DNA of 64,000 nt from Pseudoalteromonas espejiana DSM 9414. GTDB taxonomy: Bacteria; Pseudomonadota; Gammaproteobacteria; Enterobacterales; Alteromonadaceae. Location: positions 1,871,001 to 1,935,000 of the forward strand of contig NZ_CP011028.1 in NCBI RefSeq assembly GCF_002221525.1, given 5' to 3'. The notes beneath the pieces were generated by a model. The model saw only the letters and a list, made by a program, of their open reading frames with translations, did no database searches and was not told the origin of the DNA. The position numbers and the translations under genes are program-made. How positions within the stretch are numbered: position 1 is the stretch's first letter; every line of letters starts with the position of its first letter. This document shows positions 1 to 7,110 of the stretch, piece by piece.

Positions 1-525
1 CAGCTCTCGCTCTTTACCTGCACTAAGCTCAAACAAAAACAGTTTTAGCTCTTTGTACAAAGGGTGCTTTTTACTTAAACCATGATCAACCGCTAAAGAG
101 AATGCCCGCTCAAGTGAGAACCCCGCGCGCATGTAAACAAGTAACACACTTAGAAAAAACTCTAGGCTATTGTTAATTTGTTGCTTACGTTGGCCCTTTC
201 TAAACAAAAACCATATATCTGGCATAAAAAAGCACAATACACATAGTATAGAAGTTGCTGTTATGCTCAGTTCATAACCCGATATCTCTATAGCTGTGTA
301 ACCACAAAATGCAGCTGCCATTTTAAAACAGTACATACTTAATAAAATTTTATTTATTTGAAACCCAGCTTGTCTAAGCTGCGACTTAGAAATAATTATG
401 AGTGGGTACCAATTAATACTTTTTTTAACGGGCTTTTGTACTTCAGCTTTTAATGATTGCTTATGAATATGAATAAACGCACCCATAGAGATCATAAGGC
501 CTATAAATAAAAATAGATCTATCAT
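1..525 (-). CDS. tadC: TadC-like pilus assembly membrane protein (partial, runs off left edge)
   Basis: Translating the minus strand from the ATG at 525 gives an open frame to the window edge (175 codons, no stop seen), beginning MIDLFLFIGLMISMGAF. The protein has hydrophobic segments near its N-terminus and at about residues 55-95, followed by a sequence around residues 110-175 with the feel of a type II secretion F domain (T2SSF, TadB/TadC family). The start codon overlaps the tadB stop as ATGA, so translation is probably coupled. In Tad systems TadC pairs with TadB as the inner-membrane platform driven by the TadA ATPase. Its C-terminal half lies outside the window. The call rests mainly on position and T2SSF-like character. 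Confidence 0.8.
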   Translation of the reverse strand, partial: MIDLFLFIGLMISMGAFIHIHKQSLKAEVQKPVKKSINWYPLIIISKSQLRQAGFQINKILLSMYCFKMAAAFCGYTAIEISGYELSITATSILCVLCFFMPDIWFLFRKGQRKQQINNSLEFFLSVLLVYMRAGFSLERAFSLAVDHGLSKKHPLYKELKLFLFELSAGKEREL

Positions 526-1397
526 AGTGTTACCCTCAAGCTTAAGCGTAACCATAAAAAACCAAACAGCTGACAAAGTACTGCCACGGTTATAAATGCC
601 ATGCCATTAGGATTATTCAAAAGCGGATCAAACCACGTTGGGTCGGTGTAGTTAAATAATGGCACTAATGCATAGGGTAAAACGCCACTAAATACGGCTG
701 CGTACTTAGTGCCCGAAAGCTTAGCCTTTAATTGTTGGCGGTCTAAGGTTCTTAATGCCATCATTTTACATACGCTTTTTAGCATATCAGTTAAATCGCA
801 TTGGCTTTGTGCGTGAGTAATTATACTGTGTGCAAACAGGCGAACGGTTTCGCAGTTGTAGCGGTTAATTAGTGGGTAAAATGATGTATGTGCATCGCTT
901 CCCATACTCATACGCTGCAGTAATAAGTGGCTTTGCTCTTTTATGTATTTGTCTGCGTGTTCGTCTGCAAATTGCATCGCTTGCTGCAGAGATAATCCCG
1001 TACTTAAACAAGACTGTACAGTTTCCATATACTCTAAAAATAAATGCTCAAACTTAGCAAGCTTGTAATGAGCTAAGTCAATAACAAAAATAAAGCAGGT
1101 TATAAAAACAACCATTGCGAGTATTAGCGCGCTCGTAGAAGCCTGCGGATAATAATGCTTTGCAACAAACCATGCACTACTTGCCAGTGAACTGGCTACA
1201 CTAATAAATAAAATATTACTTATATTTATACCCAACACACGCAATGAAAGCGTAAGAATATCTTTCTCTTGTAATACATCTTCATCTTGCAGGGTGTTTG
1301 TTGCTGGTTTTTTTACATTAATGGTAATAAACACACTCAGTGCCAATGTAAGCGAAATAACACTGGCTATTGCAAGTAGGTAATCAAGCTTATTCAT
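522..1397 (-). CDS. tadB: TadB-like inner-membrane platform protein of Tad pilus
   Basis: This 291-residue membrane protein has hydrophobic segments near the N-terminus (about 5-26), at about 50-110 and at the C-terminus (about 235-290). Between them lies a cytoplasmic T2SSF-type domain (about 115-230) with the usual 'glycine-leucine-serine...A' helix (TGLSLQQAMQFADE). It is known as the inner-membrane platform subunit of Tad/Flp pili, working with TadC and the TadA ATPase. It overlaps tadA by 8 bp upstream and tadC by 4 bp downstream, so the three are surely co-transcribed. Family assignment is confident; the TadB rather than TadC label follows gene order. Confidence 0.85.
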   Translation of the reverse strand: MNKLDYLLAIASVISLTLALSVFITINVKKPATNTLQDEDVLQEKDILTLSLRVLGINISNILFISVASSLASSAWFVAKHYYPQASTSALILAMVVFITCFIFVIDLAHYKLAKFEHLFLEYMETVQSCLSTGLSLQQAMQFADEHADKYIKEQSHLLLQRMSMGSDAHTSFYPLINRYNCETVRLFAHSIITHAQSQCDLTDMLKSVCKMMALRTLDRQQLKAKLSGTKYAAVFSGVLPYALVPLFNYTDPTWFDPLLNNPNGMAFITVAVLCQLFGFLWLRLSLRVTL

Positions 1398-2688
1398 AGC
1401 TTAACTCCTCATTTGCATTGAGAAGTGTTTGAAGTCGCTGCTTATTTGCCCCTTGCTGGGTCATAAATTTAATAACACTTGAGTCGTTAACAGCATTGGC
1501 TGATACTTTTTCAATATCACTCGCGCTATATAAAGAGCTAAAGTGTGCATTGCCATTTACTTGCTTAATTTCACCAATGCTTTTGAGTGTTCTTACACCA
1601 TCGGTGCTGCGAAAAACATGCACTATTAATTGAATACTTGAGGCAATTAAAGCACTTGTATGGTTATCGCTAAGTTGCGCATTGTGTAATTGTACGAGCG
1701 TGCTAAGGCGTGTAACTGCATCACTTGCACTGTTAGCGTGAATAGTTGTCATAGAGCCTTGATGACCACAGTTCATGGCCTGGAGCATGTCGATTACTTC
1801 ACCTGAGCGTACTTCACCTACTAGTATTCTATCGGCACGCATTCTGAGTGCTGCTTTAACTAAATCTCTTAAGCTCACGGCCCCTTTGCCATCGCTGTTT
1901 GTATCATGTGCTTCAAGTTGTACAACGTGATTGTGATGCAAGCTAAGTTCGGCGCTTTCTTCAATGGTTACAACGCGCTCATTTGGATTTATTGAGTTAG
2001 CAAGCACATTTAAAAGCGTTGTTTTACCTGCGCCAGCATTTCCGCACACCAAAATGTTTACGCCCATTTTTACAGCGGTCTTTAAAAATGTAAGCGTGTT
2101 TTGATTTAGTACATTATTAGAAATTAAAAACTCATCATTAATTTTCTTATGATTAAACTTCCTAATAGAAACGATGGCTGCGCTTGTGCAAGCAGGAGGA
2201 ACAATTATATGTACCCTGCTGCCATCTTTTAGCTTGCCATCAACTATCGGCATTAATGCATTTACTTGACGCCCACAGCTATCAAGTAACCTATCTACAA
2301 AGCGACGTAAATGACGTTCATCGTCAAATTTACTTGCTGTGCACAGTAACTTACCTTGTTTATCAATCCAAATGTCTTGTGTGTCGTTAATTAAAATGTC
2401 GCTTACTTGGTCATCCAGCATAAATTGCGCAATAGGCCCTAGGCCTTGGATTTCATCATATACAGCTTGAACGACTTGTTCTTGTTGGTATTTGTTAAAT
2501 GAAGCATGTTCGAACTCTTCTAAGTCGCTGCAAAGTGAAGCTATTTTTTCAAGTACGCCGTCTGACAGTAGAGCTTTTGGGTCTTGCTCGTACTCTTCAA
2601 TGACTGCATCGTGGAGTATTTTTTTAAGCTCTTCAAAGGTGCTTAAGCTTTCGTCGATAGCATCTGATTTATTTGATAAGTTAAACAT
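1390..2688 (-). CDS. tadA: TadA/CpaF secretion ATPase of Tad pilus
   Basis: A 432-residue hexameric secretion ATPase of the TadA/CpaF/VirB11 family that powers Tad pilus assembly at the inner membrane. The Walker A motif is GNAGAGKTT at residues 216-224. The acidic ESAE box follows at about 244-248, the Walker B-like RILVGEVR at about 287-294 and the His box with TTIHANS at about 314-320. The N-terminal 90 residues are the usual variable helical region. Length is normal for the family. It starts 6 bp after the cpaB stop and overlaps tadB, inside the prepilin-cpaB-tadABC unit. No tadZ/cpaE gene is seen upstream of tadA, where many loci carry it. Confidence 0.95.
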   Translation of the reverse strand: MFNLSNKSDAIDESLSTFEELKKILHDAVIEEYEQDPKALLSDGVLEKIASLCSDLEEFEHASFNKYQQEQVVQAVYDEIQGLGPIAQFMLDDQVSDILINDTQDIWIDKQGKLLCTASKFDDERHLRRFVDRLLDSCGRQVNALMPIVDGKLKDGSRVHIIVPPACTSAAIVSIRKFNHKKINDEFLISNNVLNQNTLTFLKTAVKMGVNILVCGNAGAGKTTLLNVLANSINPNERVVTIEESAELSLHHNHVVQLEAHDTNSDGKGAVSLRDLVKAALRMRADRILVGEVRSGEVIDMLQAMNCGHQGSMTTIHANSASDAVTRLSTLVQLHNAQLSDNHTSALIASSIQLIVHVFRSTDGVRTLKSIGEIKQVNGNAHFSSLYSASDIEKVSANAVNDSSVIKFMTQQGANKQRLQTLLNANEELSYE

Positions 2689-2694
2689 AGGTAC

Positions 2695-3462
2695 TCACTT
2701 AGCCACATAGACGGCTTCGTTTTTCACACCTTTAACAACCTCTATAGTGCGACTGGTTTGTAATCTTGAAAAGTTTTGAAGCTTCCCTTGTTCAATATCG
2801 TAGGCGCTGTGAACAATAATGGAGACTTTGTCTTCTAAATCTATTCCGGCCAGTGAATACACATCTTTAGGTAACACGGCAAGCACCAAAGACACCGCGC
2901 TTGCAGGTGATGGCTCTTTATTTGAAAGGCTATCCATAACACCAGGCTTTTGTGCTTTGCCTTTAGGGCCTTTGGATACACCAATGAGCTGTACATCACG
3001 GGCAACTGTTCTTACTAAACGATTAGTTTTAGCAACAATATCTAAGCGATCACCTTTATGAACGCGAGAAAGAGGAATATCTAAACTGTTGAGTTTAAGT
3101 GTGTATAGGACTCTGCCTGCAGGAATCGCTTCAGACAGGTTTTGGCTTTTCGCCTGTATAAAATCGGTTTCAAATAAGGGTTGATCGCCCATTTTATTTG
3201 TCGCTAACTGCTTACCAATAAGCGCCCGAGGATTTTGTACACTCAGAGCAATATTTGCATAGTTAGTGGGGTCTACTTGCTTTTGAGACACATCGTTTAC
3301 ACTAATAGTTTGCCCAGCAGACATGTTTTTATTTACAACCCAAACACTGACTACATCTTGTTCATTTACTTGTCTTATCCCAAGTGCTGAAGCCAACATG
3401 CCAGAGGTAATAAGTAAGGTAAGTGCAGCTGTAGTTGCACCTTTATTATTTTTACTTTTCAT
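2695..3462 (-). CDS. cpaB: CpaB/RcpC family Tad pilus assembly protein
   Basis: A 255-residue protein with one N-terminal membrane segment (about 8-28), followed by a SAF-like domain beginning VVNKNMSAGQTISVNDVSQKQV (about residues 42-63) and the C-terminal RcpC/CpaB region (about 110-240, including SLDIPLSRVHKGDRLDIV). CpaB/RcpC proteins sit in the periplasm beside the secretin and are needed for Tad pilus export. The ATG is preceded by a strong AGGAGG. The gene follows the prepilin by 67 bp and precedes tadA by 6 bp. In many Tad loci cpaB lies directly before the secretin gene; here the secretin lies in a separate upstream unit. Confidence 0.88.
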   Translation of the reverse strand: MKSKNNKGATTAALTLLITSGMLASALGIRQVNEQDVVSVWVVNKNMSAGQTISVNDVSQKQVDPTNYANIALSVQNPRALIGKQLATNKMGDQPLFETDFIQAKSQNLSEAIPAGRVLYTLKLNSLDIPLSRVHKGDRLDIVAKTNRLVRTVARDVQLIGVSKGPKGKAQKPGVMDSLSNKEPSPASAVSLVLAVLPKDVYSLAGIDLEDKVSIIVHSAYDIEQGKLQNFSRLQTSRTIEVVKGVKNEAVYVAK

Positions 3463-3529: not shown

Positions 3530-3919
3530 CTAGTTACCTTGGAATCCACCTGCTGTAGTTCGCGTTGCAGCGTCACCGCTTGGCGTCGCACTGATAAGCG
3601 CAGCACTTTCACTAAAGTCTGATGTTACGAAAGTAAATGAAGTGCCATCACCTGCGTAGGTGTCTACTGCATCCACATAGCCAGAACCTGAAATCTCAGC
3701 TGTACCCTCGGCGTTAATCATGCCATCAAATACATAACTTTGGTCAAGTGAACCAATGGCCTCTGCTACATCTTCAAGCTCACTCGTTACCGAGTCACGC
3801 AAGGTTGATAAACCAATTACAAGCGCTGCAACCATAGACGTAGAAAGGATGATGAGCTCTGATGTAAGTACAAAACCTTTTTGTTTTTTGCTATTTAAAT
3901 TACTTTTCATAGTTTTCAT
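3530..3919 (-). CDS. Flp/Tad-type prepilin-like protein
   Basis: A 129-residue protein with a short basic leader ending in KKQKG, a hydrophobic helix starting FVLTSELIILSTSMVAALVIGL and a Gly/Ser/Thr/Asp-rich C-terminal part. This matches a class III signal peptide cut after Gly by a prepilin peptidase. The conserved Glu falls at +6 after the cut rather than the canonical +5, and the mature part is longer than a classic Flp subunit. The ATG at 3919 is chosen because AAGGTG sits 6 bp upstream; an in-frame GTG at 3928 lies inside that site. It is first in the unit leading to cpaB-tadABC, behind a sigma-54-like promoter. It is probably the major or a minor pilin. Confidence 0.75.
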   Translation of the reverse strand: MKTMKSNLNSKKQKGFVLTSELIILSTSMVAALVIGLSTLRDSVTSELEDVAEAIGSLDQSYVFDGMINAEGTAEISGSGYVDAVDTYAGDGTSFTFVTSDFSESAALISATPSGDAATRTTAGGFQGN

Positions 3920-3965
3920 AATGATCACCTTAAAAAATTAGGAGCTTATGCTCACTTTATATATA

Positions 3966-3979
3966 GCGAGGACTATGCC
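3966..3979 (-). promoter_or_regulatory. Sigma-54-like promoter of the prepilin-cpaB-tadABC unit
   Basis: On the minus strand TTGGCATAGTCCTCGCTA contains GG-N10-GC with good agreement to the -24/-12 consensus (TGGCAC..TTGC). The -24 GG is at 3979-3978 and the -12 GC at 3967-3966. Transcription would start near 3954, giving a leader of about 35 bases before the ATG at 3919. A second promoter with the same architecture lies before the secretin gene. Confidence 0.6.
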
Positions 3980-4049
3980 AAAATTTATACCATTTAATTT
4001 CAATTACTTACATTTAAACTCTGTTATTTTATTTACTATTCCTTGATAT

Positions 4050-4068
4050 GATTCGCATTTTGCAAATC
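4050..4068 (-). promoter_or_regulatory. Palindromic upstream element (candidate enhancer site) of the prepilin unit
   Basis: The minus strand reads ATTTGCAAAATGCGAAT, a near-palindrome centred at 4059, about 93 bp upstream of the -12 element. An almost identical palindrome (ATTTGCATTTTGCAAAT) is found at an equivalent distance from the secretin promoter. The position fits an upstream activating site for a sigma-54 enhancer-binding protein. Confidence 0.55.
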
Positions 4069-4217
4069 ATTTTTAAATTACACATATTTCAAAGCACAAA
4101 AAACCATAAGTTCAAGTTAACTTACTGTTATAAATAAAATAATTTCGGATGTTTGGTTTTAATAATGAGAATTTGGGATAGGCTATTTATTGAGGGATTT
4201 GTTAGGCGCTTTGAGCA

Positions 4218-4249
4218 AGTGAGTTGACAGTCATTTTTATCAACTCACT
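4218..4249. terminator. Stem-loop between the Tad units
   Basis: AGTGAGTTGA at 4218-4227 and its exact complement TCAACTCACT at 4240-4249 enclose a 12-nt loop. It lies about 130 bp downstream of the tadD-like stop. There is no long T-run, so it may be a terminator or an mRNA-stabilising hairpin. Confidence 0.4.
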
Positions 4250-4272
4250 GGTTTATTTATAAACAAAGCTTA

Positions 4273-4340
4273 GGGTCTGTTGAGCTTTCAAGGTTAAATT
4301 TGCAGCAGCCTGTTTAGTATACAGGCGAGGCAGCGCCTAG
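4273..4340 (+). repeat. Diverged half copy of the 51.6-kb MITE-like element
   Basis: These 68 bp align without gaps to 51597-51664, sharing GGG.GTGTTGA-like ends, the core AATTTGCAGCAG and AGGC.AGGCAG.GCCTA, at roughly three quarters identity by eye. As in the full copy, it is preceded by a TA dinucleotide (4271-4272). No right-hand inverted repeat follows, so this is a solo end or decayed remnant. Confidence 0.6.
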
Positions 4341-4376
4341 TGTTTAACTGAGTATTAAATTAAAAAGGTGTTTATC

Positions 4377-5054
4377 TTAACTTGTACAGTTTCCAAGTAC
4401 GGTTAATTTAGCGTAACGCGCAACAGCACTTTTGTGGTGTGGGTCAATACTCATTGCTTTATCATAATAGTTACACGCTAAATGGTTATTAGTTGTGGCC
4501 TCTTCAATTAACCCTTTGTGGTAATAATAGCTGCTTTGGTTTACCCCAAATTTATAAGCAAGTTCTAGGTAATTAGATGAAACAACATACCCTCCTTGTG
4601 CATAATAAATTGAGGCCATTTGCAAATATGGCGAGGCATGTGTACCAAATACATCAATTGCATATTGCGCTATTTGTTTTGCTTTAGCTAAATTACCCTG
4701 CTCAATAGCTAACGTTACACCTAGCGTAAGTGTATTTAATGGTGGGTTTGGTGCATTAAGTAGCTGATTAACAATTTGCTGAGCTTGGCTATTGCGCCCA
4801 CTTTTATAATAGCTGTATGCAGCAACCGACAAAATAGCAGTGTTACTCGGGTGTTCCAGCATAAGCTGATTAAGCTCATGAACCAGCGTCAAGCAATTTG
4901 CTGCAGTTGCGCCTTCACACTTAAGTGGTGCTGTATTTATATTGTATTTAGTCACTATGTTGTTTAATGCTGTATAGGGGTTTACGCTTGGCTTGTAATC
5001 TACATGCGCACAACCAGCTAAAGTAAGTAAAATAAATATAACAATAATTTTCAT
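4377..5054 (-). CDS. tadD: TadD-like TPR lipoprotein
   Basis: A 225-residue lipoprotein. The signal peptide MKIIVIFILLTLAGC ends in a lipobox (LAGC), with Cys15 as the acylated residue. The rest is helical with tetratricopeptide repeats, clearest at about residues 70-135 and 145-215 (for example YYHKGLIEEATTNNHLACNYYDKAMSIDPHHKSAVARYAKL). TadD-type lipoproteins assist secretin assembly in Tad systems. Its ATG overlaps the secretin stop as ATGA, so the two are translationally coupled. Identity as TadD follows from the TPR lipoprotein character and neighbours. Confidence 0.75.
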   Translation of the reverse strand: MKIIVIFILLTLAGCAHVDYKPSVNPYTALNNIVTKYNINTAPLKCEGATAANCLTLVHELNQLMLEHPSNTAILSVAAYSYYKSGRNSQAQQIVNQLLNAPNPPLNTLTLGVTLAIEQGNLAKAKQIAQYAIDVFGTHASPYLQMASIYYAQGGYVVSSNYLELAYKFGVNQSSYYYHKGLIEEATTNNHLACNYYDKAMSIDPHHKSAVARYAKLTVLGNCTS

Positions 5055-6970
5055 AACCCTTGCTCCTGTATATAGCTTATTAGTTGGCTATCTATGTCAG
5101 CGTTTTGCCATGCGCGAAGACTATTAATCGGTTCACGTACTAAGTTAGGTGTTACAACAATAATTAGTTCACGGTTGTTTTCACTATTGCTGGTTGTTTC
5201 AGTTAACTTTCCTAACATGCTGTTGCCATTAGCGTCAGGCACAAAGTCATGGCTTGCGTTGTTATCTGTACTTATTAATCCGCCAATTATTAAAGGTTGG
5301 CCATCTTGTAGGCGAGTTGAAGTTTGCATACTGCGAGTATTAAATGCGCTGCTGTTTAAGCTACTGCCCGTGCTTTGTGCTATTTCTGCCGTAAGTGTTG
5401 TGTCGGGTAAAGAAATAACAGGGTTTAAATCTAGGGTTATTCGGTCTTTATCGTCTACTAATGCGCGTACGTTTAGCTCTACCCCAAACGATTTAAATTC
5501 AGTGCCACTAAATACAGAGCCACTATTACCTTGTTGACCACTAGTTACACCTGACGGGCTGTAACTGGTTGGCACGGGTACTTCGCCACCTACTTTAAAA
5601 ACAGCGCTTTCGCCAGCTAATACAGTTAATGTTGGGCGTGATAACGTGCGTGAAATACCTTCTTGCTCAAGTAATGAGAACAACATATCGATGGCAAATT
5701 GAGAGGTTGATAGCTGCAAATTGTTAGTTAGCTGTCCGCCTATGAGTTGTAATGCATTTTCAATTGTTGCAGAGCCTGACTCACGACTTGCCATACCTTC
5801 TAAGCCAAATAAACCTTGCTCTTTTTCATACCCCGTAGTCAACACACTAATATCTGGTCGCCACTGCTTTAAGCGACGTTGATTAACTTCATACAACTGA
5901 ACAGATACTCGTACTTGTGGTAAATCTTCCACTTCTATACTCGAGAGCACTTTGCCATTAGCAACAGAAAGCAACGTAGCCCGTGCTACATTTGAGCTTA
6001 CGTTACTTAAGGTAAGCCCTGAGTCTTCGTTTAATAAAGCGCCTGATTCGTTCGCTAACACTTCAATTGGGCTGCTATTATTTTGTGCTGCGTTAGTCAT
6101 CAGCCCGTTAGGATCAAGTGCAGCACCTGGTATTTGCGTAGCTTGCTCAGGCTCAAACAATTTATTTACGGTATTGAGTAACCTTACTAATTCAATTTGG
6201 TTTTTAACCGTACCAGATAGCATAAATACATCATTTTCATCATTTGATAGTTCATCAACCGAAATACGTTTAATCGTTACATTGTTAGCACCCATCGACT
6301 TTAATACTTGTGCAATTCGCTCCTCTTTAGGCTTTGGTGCTTGCGTTACTTTAATTAAGTTGATAATGGCAACTTTACTGGAGTTTTGAGAAAGCCCATT
6401 ATTTAAATTGCCCATACCTTGTAAGCGTTGAGCAAGTGAATTAAACATACCTTGATTTGGTGCTGAGGTTATAACAGGTTGAGAAGATTGCGCGCTGCTT
6501 GCATACAAATAGTTTTTTGCTGCTTCATGTGCTGCATGGCGATAGTTAAGTGTTGGCACTTCACCACGAAGCACTACTGCATGCCTGTCTGGGGCAATGG
6601 TTAATTTAACATTGGGATGTATATCATTAAGTGCGTTTTCTAGCACACTGTAATCTTCGGTTACACCCAACAGAAATGTCTCTGAAGTACTATCGTCATA
6701 CCATACCATCATAGATGTACGGCCTAACTTTTTAGCTAAGATTAATAGCTCTCGCCCATTTACAACGTTTACATCAAGCGTTGTTTCATGGCCAAGTGCC
6801 ACACGTGCTATATCACGATTAAACACAAAACGAGTATGGGTCCATTTAACTAAATGGGATACTTTTTTCACTCGTTCACCATTTGCGTTTTCTATGTAGT
6901 TTAAATTACTTTGCTGAGCCCAAATACAATAAGGTAAAAAAAGTAACACTGCGATGATTGTTTTAAACAT
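5051..6970 (-). CDS. rcpA: RcpA/CpaC outer-membrane secretin of Tad pilus
   Basis: A 639-residue secretin with signal peptide MFKTIIAVLLFLPYCIWA. The N-terminal periplasmic part (about 20-330) includes the pilus-secretin N domain (VARVALGHETTLDVN-like segment near 55-100) and a BON-like region. The C-terminal secretin core is at about 340-620, with typical stretches RPTLTVLAGESAVFKVGGEVPVP and SSLNSSAFNTRSMQTSTRLQDGQPLIIGGL. It forms the outer-membrane channel through which the Tad pilus emerges. At 639 residues it is long for RcpA/CpaC, through inserts rich in Asn and Ser near 165-200 and 285-330. It heads its own unit with the tadD-like gene, behind a sigma-54-like promoter. Confidence 0.9.
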   Translation of the reverse strand: MFKTIIAVLLFLPYCIWAQQSNLNYIENANGERVKKVSHLVKWTHTRFVFNRDIARVALGHETTLDVNVVNGRELLILAKKLGRTSMMVWYDDSTSETFLLGVTEDYSVLENALNDIHPNVKLTIAPDRHAVVLRGEVPTLNYRHAAHEAAKNYLYASSAQSSQPVITSAPNQGMFNSLAQRLQGMGNLNNGLSQNSSKVAIINLIKVTQAPKPKEERIAQVLKSMGANNVTIKRISVDELSNDENDVFMLSGTVKNQIELVRLLNTVNKLFEPEQATQIPGAALDPNGLMTNAAQNNSSPIEVLANESGALLNEDSGLTLSNVSSNVARATLLSVANGKVLSSIEVEDLPQVRVSVQLYEVNQRRLKQWRPDISVLTTGYEKEQGLFGLEGMASRESGSATIENALQLIGGQLTNNLQLSTSQFAIDMLFSLLEQEGISRTLSRPTLTVLAGESAVFKVGGEVPVPTSYSPSGVTSGQQGNSGSVFSGTEFKSFGVELNVRALVDDKDRITLDLNPVISLPDTTLTAEIAQSTGSSLNSSAFNTRSMQTSTRLQDGQPLIIGGLISTDNNASHDFVPDANGNSMLGKLTETTSNSENNRELIIVVTPNLVREPINSLRAWQNADIDSQLISYIQEQGL

Positions 6971-7004
6971 ATACGCGTCCTCATTTATGCTTTGTATATA
7001 CAGA

Positions 7005-7018
7005 GCAATTATAAGACC
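7005..7018 (-). promoter_or_regulatory. Sigma-54-like promoter of the secretin-tadD unit
   Basis: The minus strand reads CTGGTCTTATAATTGCTCTG, giving GG-N10-GC with a complete TTGC at -12. The -24 GG is at 7018-7017 and the -12 GC at 7006-7005. The predicted start near 6993 gives a leader of about 23 bases before the ATG at 6970. Confidence 0.6.
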
Positions 7019-7089
7019 AGCGTTATATTATAAGTAAATTCAAGTGGTTAACTAAAGGTGGTGAGGATATGTGGAATGTTTTTGTATTT

Positions 7090-7110
7090 TGATTTGCAAA
7101 ATGCAAATAA
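7090..7110 (-). promoter_or_regulatory. Palindromic upstream element of the secretin unit
   Basis: ATTTGCAAAATGCAAAT (plus strand, 7092-7108, centre 7100) is a palindrome with 7-bp arms about 94 bp upstream of the -12 element. It matches the element before the prepilin promoter in sequence and, within 2 bp, in spacing. It is a candidate binding site for a shared activator. Confidence 0.55.

Follow-up and report, generated by a model that had tools for sequence, protein, structure and literature searches.

The genes for a Tad pilus in a 64-kb stretch of a Pseudoalteromonas genome of 4.50 Mb (C1:1871001-1935000; the whole stretch is called the window here) are divided between two units on the minus strand, one starting with a prepilin-like gene and the other with a secretin gene, and before each unit lie a sigma-54 (-24/-12) element and, further upstream, a palindrome. 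Both palindromes are very probably activating sites for one LuxO-family activator, and a chain of kinase, Hpt protein, activator and sigma-54 would co-activate both tad units. We place the two units under one activator because the sites are conserved in relatives and lead to one activator gene; this is the best-supported reading of the region, and it upholds the proposal of an initial annotation that a dedicated sigma-54 regulator would switch the pilin and secretin units on together. The known targets of LuxO-type activators are quorum-sensing RNAs and, via SypG, biofilm polysaccharide. Since matching sites and the regulator gene lie beside pilus genes in relatives, this family of quorum-sensing and polysaccharide regulators probably also runs a pilus. 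A pilus family with a poorly named pilin thereby gains a testable regulon, recognisable by sequence despite its halves being 645 kb apart.

The GG-N10-GC cores of the two sigma-54 elements lie on the minus strand just where they had been annotated, and from the centre of the palindrome to the GC of the -12 element we measure 92.5 bp in the prepilin unit and 94.5 bp in the secretin unit, in line with the 92-95 bp first reported. The accompanying claim that the repeated arrangement goes beyond chance holds for one of its two parts. GG-N10-GC alone does not exceed chance, because the sigma-54 consensus at up to two mismatches gives 64 matches in the window against 70 expected; 239 such elements score at least 15 on its two strands. 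The rare part of the pair is the palindrome. Within one mismatch of ATTTGCANNNTGCRAAT the window holds just the two tad sites, and the 15-mer TTTGCANNNTGCRAA occurs exactly at five places in the genome, before the two tad units and three times in one locus 645 kb away (1.227-1.229 Mb). At up to three mismatches ATTTGCANNNTGCRAAT is found 22 times in the window, below the 33.5 expected, and at up to one mismatch TTTGCANNNTGCRAA is found 42+44 times in the genome, no more than a reversed control pattern (47+50).

In sequence terms the tad palindrome is a LuxO box, the published LuxO site being TTGCAWWWTGCAA (PMC11443567, PMC10162802, in the portions available). Sites within one mismatch of the LuxO core are present in the 500 bp before luxO at 21 of 24 Vibrionaceae loci, and from these loci we compiled a matrix of 24 sites (17 different 17-mers, both strands), picked by the published core. 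An Rfam Qrr RNA adjoins luxO, running away from it, in 10 of the 11 of these loci that were checked, and the matrix sites are therefore taken to be qrr1 enhancers; among the Vibrionaceae loci, L037 has a Qrr without a site and L030 has neither. Against this matrix the window palindromes score 24.2 and 21.1, with a maximum of 24.3, and the third-best match in the window scores 11.7. A palindrome of at least 17 followed by a GG-N10-GC element of at least 15 at 40-115 bp arose four times in total over 200 random Markov windows, and the real window has two (the thresholds of 16 and 17 used here and below, and the element score of 15-16, are our own and were fixed after viewing the data).

Eight genomes give a similar picture on a larger scale. 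Their 245 kb of module DNA contain 40 sites scoring at least 16, compared with 1.3 expected, and 37 of these are intergenic. An element of at least 16 lies 40-150 bp away on the strand that faces the gene for 36 of the 37 (35 is the fairer count, because the element credited to the focal Hpt site falls within the Hpt coding sequence), on the other strand for none of them, and at 261 of 2000 random positions. A chance origin, in which AT-rich palindromes merely happen to stand beside common GG-N10-GC look-alikes, is in keeping with the ordinary frequency of those elements, but it is rejected by this strict orientation and the excess of sites, and by conservation in ten of ten close genomes, which leave it a negligible probability.

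Among 108 genomes of the genus, which are close relatives, the secretin (E <= 1e-60) is present in 12 and the activator (at least 580 bits) in 14, the 12 being a subset of the 14; none of the 94 genomes without the activator has the secretin, and the next activator class in the genus reaches 469 bits or less. The expectation that the palindrome and the -24/-12 element would recur together before the tad genes of relatives was borne out. In all of ten further tad genomes (besides the focal one and Pseudoalteromonas sp. 0303) the prepilin site is present and its element follows the 17-mer at 70 or 72 bp; all ten also have the secretin site, its element following at 60 or 72 bp, and each of their ten activator loci carries four sites, at the receiver, pilin-like, EAL and Hpt genes. 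In alignments the palindrome and the -24/-12 element stand out against variable spacers, and in the prepilin alignment GG-N10-GC occupies the matching place in every one of the other 12 rows. Matches to integration host factor (IHF) sites between enhancer and promoter are perfect in some spacers (e.g. L145, L152 and L149-L151) and in many others no better than shuffled sequence. Separately, the predicted prepilin leader contains a hairpin-like GAGC-ATAA-GCTC repeat; of the 12 further sequences aligned there, 11 keep it intact or with a single change, and it is not seen in that of Spongiibacter.

The remaining exact sites lie in a locus encoding a receiver protein, an isochorismatase-family hydrolase, a complete PAS-hybrid kinase, a small prepilin-like protein, an EAL protein, an Hpt protein and a 464-residue activator. 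An additional palindrome with one mismatch precedes the receiver gene, and TGGCACAGCCTTCGCA and TGGTCTGCAATTTGCT lie downstream of the palindromes at the small pilin-like gene and the EAL gene, respectively. A regulator left of the window, where the initial annotation had suggested looking, is rejected, there being none in the 18 kb read on that side; the gene indicated by the sites is this distant one. With its single rpoN, the genome combines all the parts that a pair of sigma-54 promoters calls for by sequence: the -24/-12 elements, a conserved upstream site at similar distance and an activator with the sigma-54 loop, in the variant form GAFSGA.

The activator has REC, AAA+ sigma-54 and HTH_8 domains. 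Its best curated match is LuxO (NF041946), at 583 bits with a cut-off of 800, the next LuxO score among the 12 strong activators of the genome is 368 (a gap of more than 200 bits), and its closest relative of solved structure is LuxO 5ep0. The Hpt protein, in which the Hpt His motif is present, likewise matches LuxU best (NF041948; 50 bits with a cut-off of 140). The recognition helix of the activator retains STIYRK, including S423, I425, Y426, R427 and K428, which are among the helix-3 residues described as critical in LuxO in the available part of PMC11407668. In a tree of 53 rows the 12 rows of tad activators, drawn from three families, form one clade, at 100/100, separate from Vibrio LuxO (13 rows), and the latter groups with a second Pseudoalteromonas type (group 2) at 98/89. 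The activator is not LuxO, because it sits in a clade of its own and falls below the curated cut-off, and a true LuxO quorum-sensing orthologue was rejected on these two counts. There appears to be a sister clade that shares the LuxO DNA box and is dedicated to the pilus, in six genera. A search of the focal genome for Qrr RNA (RF00378) gave no match, though control genomes were equally silent in that search, and no Qrr was found in the window, L001 or L013.

A different one of the genome's other 11 activators might use the sites, the linkage to the LuxO-like regulator being incidental. Though the group-2 activators of Pseudoalteromonas have a like helix (STIYRK or STLYRK) and both types coexist in G080, the focal genome has one LuxO-like scorer, the ten other activators displayed lack the helix, the 10 stretches holding the other 11 activators contain no site above 11, and regulator and tad keep together from genus to genus, all of which makes such an arrangement very improbable. 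As to further targets in the genome, 14 stretches around some of the one-mismatch matches have no matrix score above 16.5; L189:1123 (13.9) faces TGGCACATACAATGCT and L200:1126 (16.3) faces GGGTAAATCAGATGCA, both within open frames. As for group 2 itself, these LuxO-type activators occur in 36 of the 108 genus genomes (E <= 1e-120), and the one in L039 adjoins polysaccharide-export genes and LuxO-type sites.

Linkage between the regulator and the pilus, absent from the focal genome, is found in several others. In Pseudoalteromonas sp. 0303 one contig carries in order prepilin, cpaB, tadABC, the 388-residue protein, sensor, EAL, Hpt and activator, and Pseudomaricurvus and Spongiibacter also have the activator gene within their tad region. 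A search outside the genus with the prepilin only, among 395 genomes of the family and 394 of the order, found four genomes (G726, G997, G1142 and G1093, of which G997 and G1142 are of one genus), and all four have tad, the activator (66-68% identity), Hpt and EAL together, with the regulator at most about 15 kb from the prepilin. The isochorismatase-family hydrolase is present in 18 of the 20 module genomes read, being missing in G071 (L161) and in 19.9 kb of G1093. In the Shewanella-like G997, a chaperone-usher operon beside tad (with SCPU, PapD_N and Usher) likewise has two tandem LuxO-type sites and TGGCATTCTACCTGCA ahead of it, and G1142 has the same paired sites. A class-wide search with the regulator (369 genomes, E <= 1e-145) gave, besides the focal one, two relatives of 53-54% identity, which fall outside the tad clade with unsure placement and have no tad genes in the stretches fetched.

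From the sites, their promoter partners and conservation, the identity and clade of the regulator and its linkage to tad in other genera, all of which stand at the level of sequence, we infer binding, looping, phosphorelay order, direction of control and co-expression. The hybrid kinase near the regulator would pass phosphate to the Hpt protein and from there to the receiver domain of the regulator, which in its active form would bind the palindrome, loop across about 90-95 bp and, at the cost of ATP, make sigma-54 RNA polymerase open the promoters of both tad units. Prepilin, CpaB and TadABC would then be produced together with the secretin and TadD, and the same kind of site would activate the second pilin-like gene and the EAL (cyclic di-GMP phosphodiesterase) gene in the regulator locus.

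The palindrome at tad could also act as a repressor or poised site of the LuxO-like protein, or the direction of control could be the reverse, tad being off when the regulator is phosphorylated. The Hpt and receiver sites, whose genes are preceded by no canonical sigma-54 element and which might serve as operators, lend this some colour, as does the overlap of the Hpt site with a conserved TTGCAA...TTA(C/T)TCT block that we read as a possible sigma-70 promoter; the palindromes at tad, EAL and the second pilin-like gene, however, lie at enhancer distance from a -24/-12 element and on the gene-facing side only, and we consider repression of tad unlikely. luxO controls itself, and by analogy we take the Hpt site to be a probable self-repression site.

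Activation of both units by the LuxO-like regulator has to be set against several points that weigh the other way. Besides the Hpt element discounted above, aligned rows show no conserved element ahead of the gene at the Hpt site, and the receiver operon has TGGCAYATAAMTTGA, a GG-N10-GA conserved in 10 of 11 aligned rows. Two sites are weak, namely the secretin site of strain 0303 (15.5) and the prepilin site of Pseudomaricurvus (14.8). Co-occurrence in the genus is not phylogenetically independent, and in G075 and G103 the regulator is present but this secretin is missing. In the Pseudoalteromonas regulators close to the focal one, Asp stands in place of LuxO Gly409. All 16 tad-clade rows compared have GAFSGA as their sigma-54 loop, as do G997 and G1142, and G726 and G1093, of two further genera, have GSFSGA, rather than the GAFTGA of all 13 LuxO and all 12 group-2 rows; according to the available part of a Desulfovibrio study (PMC4641369), GAFSGA and GSFTGA belong to the variants that should remain active. 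Outside the tad carriers, G231, from another family, has a 53% activator, hydrolase and kinase together (L169:6631-11015); a 271-residue gene there is preceded by a LuxO-type site and TGGTACGCAATTTGCG, and the 19 kb read contain no tad.

Some of the genus genomes have incomplete sets. G080 has a split secretin and lacks cpaB-tadC in the stretch after the prepilin (L154), which, with the activator locus of G075 that lacks the tad secretin, suggests erosion. In G017, one of the 12 secretin carriers, the activator gene is interrupted or cut short (L165:1924-2889) and followed by a transposase-like frame, and G103 (L164:9068-9799) has a full signalling cassette, one site and, where tad would be expected, a short secretin-like protein with no Pfam match.

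Several known systems resemble the proposed one. The Vibrio LuxU-LuxO-qrr system shares the REC-AAA+-HTH_8 activator with an Hpt protein and TTGCAWWWTGCAA sites upstream of GG-N10-GC; the focal system differs from it in the clade and curated scores of its proteins, in the GAFSGA-type loop and in having sites before pilus and EAL genes. SypF-SypG of Vibrio fischeri, as far as the available accounts go, is alike in its LuxO-related sigma-54 response regulator, Hpt domain with hybrid kinases and surface-structure operons (syp polysaccharide), and differs in a site reported as TTCTCANNNTGMDWN and in a polysaccharide target, not a pilus. PprB is not known to be a sigma-54 activator, unlike the focal regulator. 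PprA-PprB of Pseudomonas aeruginosa is otherwise similar, one response regulator serving Flp/Tad and a chaperone-usher pilus (CupE; PMC10418997, in part), both of which are preceded by sites in G997.

The initial annotation knew of no description of sigma-54 control of this Tad type, and novelty would hold for the circuit though not for the principle, because sigma-54 control of an Flp/Tad locus has been reported for DVU2114 of Desulfovibrio vulgaris (PMC3333781, PMC4641369, both in part), a sigma-54 response regulator targeting Flp-type pilin and Tad-like assembly genes. DVU2114 has the loop GAFTGA and, in the passages available, is described without a LuxO relationship, LuxO box or Hpt. Excerpts of other papers report Tad proteins lost in FleQ mutants of Pseudomonas sp. 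M1 (PMC13111069), a dash for flp/tad in the rpoN-deletion entry of a table for P. fluorescens PF07 (PMC9207406), and a Pectobacterium flp/tad tied to a two-component system and unchanged in a vasH mutant (PMC3767616). The main text of two sigma-54 regulon surveys (PMC3162934, PMC12316311) contains neither 'tad' nor 'flp', the available parts of two V. vulnificus papers (PMC8268162, PMC4260858) describe no LuxO-type tad circuit, and we found none in the titles and abstract beginnings of literature on LuxO with tad or pili, or on Tad with rpoN, sigma-54 or Pseudoalteromonas, a search outside which most subscription papers lie.

The pilus-linked module unites the activator with a kinase, an Hpt protein, a cyclic di-GMP enzyme and the hydrolase. 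A bolder proposal, on balance doubtful, is that it represents a third LuxO-type branch besides LuxO-qrr and SypG-syp, a private circuit for attachment, portable among marine gammaproteobacteria, in which the hydrolase makes or removes a ligand of the kinase, so that tad pili (and in Shewanella also chaperone-usher pili) would answer a chemical signal.

Table 1. Positions of the features discussed (plain numbers, window; C1, whole contig; L numbers, other stretches)
Feature	Position	Strand	Basis or remark
sigma-54 (-24/-12) element TGGCATAGTCCTCGCT, prepilin unit	3965..3980	minus	GG-N10-GC at 3966-3979
sigma-54 (-24/-12) element TGGTCTTATAATTGCT, secretin unit	7004..7019	minus	GG-N10-GC at 7005-7018
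LuxO-type predicted enhancer palindrome ATTTGCAAAATGCGAAT, prepilin unit	4051..4067	minus	pattern, matrix, alignment
LuxO-type predicted enhancer palindrome ATTTGCATTTTGCAAAT, secretin unit	7092..7108	minus	pattern, matrix, alignment
GAGC-ATAA-GCTC hairpin-like inverted repeat, predicted prepilin leader	3942..3953	minus	read from sequence, alignment
prepilin-like gene, GFVLTSEL start, first of unit 1	3530..3919	minus	sequence
cpaB/rcpC-like gene	2695..3462	minus	TIGR03177 42 bits, below cut-off 71
tadA/cpaF ATPase	1390..2688	minus	PF00437 176 bits
tadB	522..1397	minus	position and size only
tadC, runs on left of window	1..531	minus	PF00482 25.3 bits, cut-off 25.2
388-residue pilin-like protein of unit 1	L001:16537-17700		left of window
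sensor-like protein ending unit 1	L001:13682-16537		left of window
secretin (rcpA/cpaC), first of unit 2	5051..6970	minus	PF00263 106 bits, PF13629 37 bits
tadD-like TPR lipoprotein	4377..5054	minus	TPR matches
LuxO-like activator gene	C1:1229492-1230883
receiver protein, hydrolase and PAS-hybrid kinase	L013:4634-9107
isochorismatase-family hydrolase	L013:5696-6289		between receiver protein and hybrid kinase
hybrid kinase	L013:6282-9104
small prepilin-like protein (second pilin-like gene)	L006:591-881
Hpt protein	L006:2110-2478
tandem sites and chaperone-usher operon, Shewanella-like genome and congener	L182:6537-8574, L184:8106-8127

The first unit runs from the prepilin-like gene through cpaB-like, tadA, tadB and tadC genes to the 388-residue pilin-like protein and a 951-residue sensor-like protein, and the second consists of the secretin and tadD-like genes. 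The set of TadA ATPase, TadB/TadC and secretin that marks a Tad/Flp system is present, with tadC barely above its cut-off and tadB recognised by position and size. The prepilin-like protein has no Pfam or NCBIfam match, and where the source names it, the names are 'hypothetical' or 'uncharacterized' and twice 'predicted hydrocarbon binding protein'. No prepilin peptidase was found in the tad locus, the sole Peptidase_A24 match of the genome being at 3.27 Mb. The starts of the three pilin-like proteins (Table 1) read [GSN][FWY][VI]LTxE. The usual position of Glu in pilin starts is +5; here it sits one residue further, and at -1 the Gly is replaced by Ser or Asn in the second pilin.

The sensor-like protein at the end of the first unit has lost its phospho-histidine (H-box) in ten of ten rows (the focal genome and nine genus mates) and in strain 0303. 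In the same genomes it has no recognisable ATPase motifs and retains its receiver domain. Its positional counterparts in Pseudomaricurvus (25% identity) and Spongiibacter (23%) are complete kinases. Rather than being the kinase, the Pseudoalteromonas protein probably acts as a sink for phosphate or an adaptor for the signal.

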